From contig SIAU01000002.1 of NCBI GenBank assembly GCA_009691685.1, forward strand, positions 1-64,000: 64,000 bases of DNA, given 5' to 3'. This document shows positions 25,220 to 57,855 of the stretch, piece after piece (the first letter of the stretch is position 1; each line of letters starts with the position of its first letter). Both the position numbers and the translations under genes were made by a program. This DNA is from Opitutales bacterium (GTDB lineage Bacteria > Verrucomicrobiota > Verrucomicrobiia > Opitutales > UBA953). The notes below the pieces were generated by a model. It made no database searches, had not been told where the DNA came from, and worked only from the letters and a program-made list of their open reading frames with translations.

Positions 25220-25355
25220 AGGGGACAAGGGGACACGGTGACAAGTTGGCAAGGGGGAGTTGCAAAAGACACTTAATTTAAATTAAGGGGACATGGGACG
25301 CGTGCGCTGCACGCGAGGGGACACGGGGACAAGGTGACACGTGGGCAAGGGGTAG
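25220..25355 (+). repeat. Degenerate 8-bp repeat arrays (two sub-arrays) with GC hairpin module A
   Basis: AGGGGACA AGGGGACA CGGTGACA AGTTGGCA AGGGGGAG (25220-25259); AGGGGACA-T-GGGACGCGTGCGCTGCACGCG-AGGGGACA CGGGGACA AGGTGACA CGTGGGCA AGGGGTAG (25286-25355). Confidence 0.9.
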
Positions 25356-25567
25356 TTGTGCAGGACGCATCGCGCACCTACCAAACCCTTTCATCAAACT
25401 ATACATCTGTAGGAAAGCCAAGATGGTGCCTTATGTGCCTTTCCTTCAAATTGTTGTAAGTTATCCGATGAATAATTTAAAACATAATTCAGCTCAGTTG
25501 GGGTTGTCACTTGACCTCATCCATGGGTCGATTTACTGATTGATTCCGTTCAAATTTGGGCGGACCT

Positions 25568-25658
25568 GGAGAGGTGGCTGAGTGGCCTAAAGCGCCCGTT
25601 TGCTAAATGGGTGTACCCCAAAAGGGTACCGTGAGTTCGAATCTCATCCTCTCCGCCA
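25568..25658 (+). tRNA. tRNA-Ser (anticodon GCU)
   Basis: Acceptor GGAGAGG/CCTCTCC, anticodon loop TTGCTAA, long variable arm gtacccc-aaaa-gggtacc, T-loop GTTCGAATC, encoded CCA. Confidence 0.95.
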
Positions 25659-25672
25659 CTTTTATCAAGTTG

Positions 25673-25795
25673 AGGGGACAAGTGGGCACGGTGACACGGT
25701 GACAAGGGGGAGATACAAAAGATCCAATGCAGTCGCGCCCTACCTAATTAAATCGAGGGGACAAGTGGGCACGTGGGCAAGGTGACAAGGGGAGA
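25673..25795 (+). repeat. Degenerate 8-bp repeat arrays (two sub-arrays) downstream of tRNA-Ser
   Basis: AGGGGACA AGTGGGCA CGGTGACA CGGTGACA AGGGGGAG (25673-25712); AGGGGACA AGTGGGCA CGTGGGCA AGGTGACA AGGGGAGA (25756-25795). Confidence 0.9.
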
Positions 25796-52003: not shown

Positions 52004-52098
52004 TTGAGGGGACACGTGGGACAGGGTAGGGGCGCGACTGCGTCGCGTCCTCGCATCTCCCCTTGTCACCGTGTCACCTTGCCCCCGTGTCCCCTCAA
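52004..52098. repeat. Palindromic octamer-repeat element with hairpin module B, filling the convergent proC/rhodanese gap
   Basis: TTGAGGGGACACGTGGGAC...GGCGCGACTGCGTCGCGTCC (52031-52050)...TCTCCCCT TGTCACCG TGTCACCT TGCCCCCG TGTCCCCTCAA. Confidence 0.9.
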
Positions 52099-57680: not shown

Positions 57681-57855
57681 TTGAGGGGACATGGGGGCAA
57701 GGGACGCGTGCGCTGCACGCGAGGGGACAAGCTGGCACGGTGACACGGGGACACGGGGAGATGCATTTACATTCTTAGGAAGGTTAGGGCGCGACTGCGT
57801 CGCGTCCATGCACTACCCCTTGCCAACTTGTCCCCTTGCCCACGTGTCCCCTCAA
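57681..57855. repeat. Large palindromic octamer-repeat element with hairpin modules A and B, filling the convergent ruvA/dapB gap
   Basis: TTGAGGGGACA...GGGACGCGTGCGCTGCACGCG (57701-57721) AGGGGACA AGCTGGCA CGGTGACA CGGGGACA CGGGGAGA...GGCGCGACTGCGTCGCGTCC (57788-57807)...CTACCCCT TGCCAACT TGTCCCCT TGCCCACG TGTCCCCTCAA. Confidence 0.92.

Follow-up and report, generated by a model that had tools for sequence, protein, structure and literature searches.

What kind of element places short runs of degenerate 8-bp repeats on both sides of a tRNA-Ser(GCU) gene, and does it belong to the tRNA? The runs lie in a 64,000-nucleotide stretch of DNA from an Opitutales bacterium (hereafter the window), which is part of contig C2 of a genome of 1.33 Mb in 57 contigs, 88% complete, put together from pieces that hold 1,330,340 of its 1,330,358 bases. 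A simple hexamer model called 1142 genes (91% coding), in agreement with the ORFs of the window, and ARAGORN found 37 tRNAs; a search of Rfam gave nothing above threshold except the tRNA.

Array structure

Four arrays in exact 8-bp units can be read directly from the sequence, all on the + strand, and shuffled sequence gives none. Array 1 (AGGGGACA AGGGGACA CGGTGACA AGTTGGCA AGGGGGAG, 25220-25259) starts 7 nt past the stop codon of an ACT-domain gene; array 2 (AGGGGACA CGGGGACA AGGTGACA CGTGGGCA AGGGGTAG) occupies 25316-25355; array 3 (AGGGGACA AGTGGGCA CGGTGACA CGGTGACA AGGGGGAG, 25673-25712) begins 14 nt past the tRNA; and array 4 (AGGGGACA AGTGGGCA CGTGGGCA AGGTGACA AGGGGAGA) follows at 25756-25795. 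A sequence-only reading of the window had already named these four, and only its second array needs trimming: it had been drawn from 25286 to 25355, of which the part before 25316 is a lone opening unit, AGGGGACA (25286-25293, + strand), and a perfect hairpin, CGCGTGC-GCT-GCACGCG (25299-25315, + strand), immediately before array 2. The step from the lone unit to array 2 is 30 bp, which is no multiple of 8.

An array measures 40 bp and consists of AGGGGACA, three variable octamers with the skeleton nG--G-CA, and a closing unit beginning nGGGG. Across the middle units of 30 strong arrays the skeleton is invariant, whilst unit positions 1, 3, 4 and 6 vary, mostly to A/C/T, G/T, G/T and A/G respectively. 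Positions 3 and 6 are moreover coupled: a G at position 3 accompanies an A at position 6, and a T (or C) accompanies a G (50+34+2 of 90 units; Fisher 1.8e-20). Exactly four units are present in 29 of the 40 tracts of this genome and more than four in none; across the genus, where the units differ slightly (GTGGACA and GTTGACA occur), four is still the rule, with 128 of 225 tracts at exactly four and three longer. Nearly every array of this genome (29/30) is unique. At the site of array 1, the relative G006 carries an eight-unit array (C257; L336:11218) that arose by a 16-bp duplication, with the pair AGGTGACA CGTGGGCA repeated, so slippage occurs but is rare.

The repeats stand well clear of chance. 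The 32-bp skeleton pattern finds seven distinct arrays in the window and none in each of 100 shuffles, the matches beyond the first four being at 52064-52095 (-), 57722-57753 (+) and 57821-57852 (-). A genome-wide profile gives 37 matches, 30 of them above 45 bits, against a Markov control with no match of at least 8 bits and a reversed sequence with none of at least 16 bits; among periods 4 to 13, period 8 is the sole one clearly enriched in the intergenic DNA of this genome (18 vs 1 in the control). The profile set also bears out the fixed opening and closing units that had been seen at this locus. That earlier reading held the arrays to be an organised element and not random slippage, and the fixed four-unit length, fixed ends, fixed skeleton and genus-wide recurrence support it; both the genome-wide search and the comparison with relatives, which it had proposed as checks, have been run, and the arrays recur elsewhere with the 8-bp phase kept, so that neither refutes an organised element.

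Position behind genes

The first array of a site begins 2-15 nt past a stop codon or a tRNA 3' end, with its G-rich strand in the sense direction. In this genome the neighbour on the 5' side is the end of a same-strand gene for 29 of 35 arrays, and at 201 loci of the genus the same holds by 151 to 50, with 87 of the 151 lying within 20 nt of the stop. Tandem gene gaps hold 14 sense arrays and 3 antisense; only 2 of 37 arrays fall in apparently divergent gaps, and one 'divergent' array (C54:24039) is in fact behind a gene that the gene caller missed. Because arrays follow gene ends, the ACT-domain gene is the owner of the first pair at our locus, and tRNA-Ser (25568-25658, + strand) that of the second, arrays 3 and 4; the element centred on the tRNA that the sequence-only reading implied thus gives way to arrays that each belong to the 3' end of their upstream gene.

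Where genes converge, two arrays face each other about a core of ~50 bp. The window holds two further copies: one between convergent genes (52026-52095, - strand), with an array at 52056-52095 (-) and a GTAG-tagged hairpin at 52026, and one in a gap between ruvA-like and dapB-like genes (57684-57852), with an opening unit and hairpin, an array at 57722-57761 (+), a core, and an array at 57813-57852 (-).

Arrays or array clusters come after every tRNA-Ser gene found in this genome (G000 in our set), namely those for GCU, GGA and UGA and a partial gene at the end of C30; among the other tRNAs, one tRNA-Val alone has them. A second hairpin-rich element, of ~110 bp, begins with the inverted complement of the tRNA-Ser 3' end and closes with a copy of that 3' end (G000 C46:3800-3912, C31:7763-7867 and C54:25841-25899; also L172 and L174). 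The copy in G006 ends in a match to the local tRNA-Ser(GCU), which gives the impression of an element fitted to each tRNA.

Hairpins and composite form

Two classes of hairpin accompany the arrays. Those before arrays have the form CGCGNNN-nnn-NNNCGCG with a variable stem, and they covary between copies, with a two-sided change in 5 of 7 pairs vs 0 of 500 shuffles. Those after arrays (GGACGCGACGCAGTCGCGCCCCTACC) are GTAG-tagged on the opposite strand. The latter module adjoins several arrays, the array itself being without a GTAG-tagged palindrome; at 25363-25382 it is degenerate (GGTAGGTGCGCGATGCGTCC on the - strand), whilst at other copies it is intact. The 'related A/T-rich spacers' previously noted between the sub-arrays are related indeed, being in the main degenerate versions of the hairpin half of the element. 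GTAGG-tagged hairpins number 13 in the genome, and the control-tag count is also 13. Pairing of the two inverted arms as one RNA hairpin was considered and rejected: the two arms of a site do not match, and the differences between them tend to outnumber those between random arrays (on average 7.6 of 12 sites for the arms of one site and 5.8 for random arrays, n = 5; genus permutation P = 0.06).

Distribution and constraint in place

The octamer array family is specific to one genus of freshwater Opitutae. Its opening pair of units occurs in 34 of 36 genomes of the genus and in none of 20 other genera of the order, where the lone match (G050) is an isolated 16-mer; in public genomes, the array-bearing ones among the matches listed are freshwater Opitutae/Verrucomicrobia assemblies. 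Viral contigs and distant bacteria were dismissed as carriers, the matches checked being single 16-mers without arrays, i.e. chance. Other genomes of the genus hold further degenerate intergenic arrays (loci L151-L267, e.g. L164:1-100, L157:2625 and L151:905), amongst them period-6 AGGGGTA-like (AGGGGTAGGGGCA) and period-7 GCGGTTR-like and GAGTAYN-like arrays (GCGGTTGGCGGTTAG; GAGTATGGAGTATC). These are of the same degenerate style, which makes the octamers one of several such families.

Most array sites of this genome are shared with the relatives G059 (~92% identical) and G006 (~87%), and here the two kinds of position part company. Across 15 same-site pairs checked by hand, 1 of 180 skeleton positions differed, against 52 of 180 variable ones, in a comparison that recognises the relatives' arrays by their unit pattern and so under-counts decayed copies; by relative, the figures are 1/84 and 0/96 for the skeleton and 30/84 and 22/96 for the variable positions, beside fourfold-degenerate sites changed by 25.5% and 36.3%. 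A few decayed copies are visible, such as that of G006 at the site of array 4, with three units and mutated skeleton letters. Judged by these pairs, the variable positions change about as fast as silent sites do, within a restricted set of letters, and the skeleton appears strongly constrained in place, although concerted copying between arrays could be an alternative keeper of it. Hypermutation of the units had been suggested by a divergence of 33-46% at variable sites vs 8-11% in coding flanks (some pairs misregistered); it is rejected because the hand-checked pairs are comparable to fourfold sites (25-36%).

Which letters are fixed also bears on the G-quadruplex, the structure proposed for the heptamer arrays of Xanthomonas and Nostoc. 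Four G-rich units on the sense strand past stop codons would suit it (PMC4692102), and a two-layer version is possible in 26 of 30 arrays; yet the canonical G3+N1-7 pattern fits none of the 30, units without GG (GTTGACA) are common in other members of the genus, and C7 and A8, for which a quadruplex has no use, are among the fixed letters. A canonical quadruplex is not conserved, and we consider a quadruplex element of any kind very improbable.

Spread and inversion

Could the family simply be mobile? Two marks of a MITE, inverted arms in convergent copies and a precise insertion with an empty site, are seen: at C26:4511-4624, 114 bp that lie past a TAA stop codon and before the next ATG are cleanly absent from both G059 and G006, with a target-site duplication of at most ~3 bp that is ambiguous (TAA). 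Together with the arrays that occur as identical copies in other genomes of the genus (87 distinct of 128), insertion argues for REP/MITE-like spread. Taken to its end, this gives a selfish, non-autonomous element without host function, tolerated behind genes, whose sense orientation would reflect a target preference. A dispersed multi-copy family is what such an element would leave; its hairpin module is like that of GTAG REPs and its opening unit fits the GGGGWSAS of tyrosine-transposase TIRs (PMC3733652), and Y1 transposases are present in 34 of 55 genomes of the genus. Against it stand the skeleton frozen at common old sites, the strong orientation in tandem gene pairs, and the transposase itself: none was found in this 88%-complete genome or in G059, and no arrays adjoin it at the 10 loci checked in the genus, so that the Y1 transposase was set aside as the arrays' partner. 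Nor did this genome or the neighbourhoods of the Y1 loci yield an autonomous MITE partner. We regard a purely selfish element as a real possibility, albeit one we would not bet on.

The inverted arms invite another thought, namely that a recombinase recognises them, flips the core and admits gene cassettes between them. Relative to the flanking genes, G059 has the core at 57761-57811 of the window in inverted orientation (inverted alignment score 36, direct -3.5); G006 at 57755 has the same orientation as this genome. The whole 52026-52095 block is also inverted in G059 (54 vs 16.5), and a third inversion, at C54:23075, is probable in a comparison by eye. Genes of 0.7-1 kb have also appeared between arms: G059 has a fasciclin-like gene (L309:10882-11875) where G000 has a short core, and G006 a similar gain (L324). 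On the other hand, many arrays are without an inverted partner, the core at C31:7657 is not flipped, and inverted repeats can undergo small flips without a dedicated enzyme, as in the hairpin loops of plastids. A dedicated recombination site seems to us improbable.

A possible role at the ends of transcripts

In-place constraint and a strong sense orientation at transcript ends argue for a cis-acting 3'-end element. We tentatively favour, at a little short of an even chance, arrays that are maintained for such a role, in transcript ending or stability, and are REP-like in their spread – a function that we infer. Four 8-bp sites with a half unit, lying on the sense strand and 2-15 nt past the gene end and usually followed by a variable-stem hairpin, would be read as RNA or during transcription, offering four side-by-side contacts to a protein or to RNA polymerase, and would end or protect the transcript in a lineage without Rho. 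That array and gene sets differ between species counts against this reading. A cis-acting role and REP/MITE-like spread can both hold together.

The state of Rho matters here in two ways. Its RNA-binding domain is missing from 30 of 30 genus genomes, and the full Rho model scores weakly in all 36 (G000-G035; best E 1e-6), as expected of other ATPases, whereas 19 of 20 other families of the order have a match at E 1e-120 or better. The genus is, on this sequence evidence, without Rho. This removes an explanation in which the C-rich antisense strand, with a YC step in every unit and hence one per 8 nt, serves as a Rho-loading (rut) site: such a role is refuted, barring an unrecognised Rho, and we give it next to no credence. 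It also makes a substitute role at gene ends conceivable. Rho was lost in a single event in a single clade, however, and this is no proof of such a role. Punctuation of gene ends that partly replaces Rho is no better than unlikely in our view; here a putative octamer-reading protein or RNA polymerase itself would read the four G--G-CA contacts and stop or trim the transcript, and the wobble letters would be free so long as each unit stays in either coupled form, GG-GACA or GT-GGCA. The genome does have intrinsic terminators (hairpin and T-run), and gene ends that carry arrays show no clear shortage of them (pooled convergent p = 0.05, tandem p = 0.2); with ~21 sites per genome vs ~1140 genes, the array cannot be a general terminator.

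Comparison with known systems

Short degenerate tandem units in intergenic DNA are familiar from the STRR heptamers of cyanobacteria, bacteria that are likewise not known to have Rho. The octamer arrays share this general character and differ from them in unit length, fixed copy number and ends.

Closer in location are the GTAG REPs, in which Opitutus terrae (Verrucomicrobium) is rich, and the related transposases whose TIRs carry GGGGWSAS (PMC3733652). Like REPs, BIMEs and the RAYT or TIRYT elements of that study, the octamer arrays are short and sit at gene ends in tandem and convergent gaps; they also form dimers in opposite orientation, and their opening unit resembles the TIR motif. A palindromic GTAG-tagged hairpin lies next to several arrays, in a genome where such tags are as many as control tags. 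Unlike GTAG REP/RAYT systems, the octamer array is not palindromic, its hairpin stems vary freely, and this genome is without the associated Y1 tyrosine transposase.

The nearest likeness is to the GGGAATC and GGGGA(C/T)T heptamer arrays of Xanthomonas and Nostoc, about four G-rich units past stop codons (PMC4692102). Here, too, there are four tandem G-rich units (29/40 tracts), just past the stop on the coding strand (29/35) and rare in divergent gaps (2/37). The present units are octamers and not heptamers, with period 8 alone in this genome; they have four defined degenerate positions with coupled letters between invariant opening and closing units, lack canonical quadruplex capacity (0/30 arrays), and come with variable-stem hairpins and inverted arms. 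Four-unit G-rich arrays behind stop codons were thus already known in two unrelated groups, without an assigned function, and this third version brings a different unit length, a measurable constraint in place and the loss of Rho in the same genus, which gives a clean basis for comparative work on whether transcripts are ended or protected by such arrays. That four sense-strand units directly behind the stop recur in bacteria so distant from one another suggests a shared mechanism.
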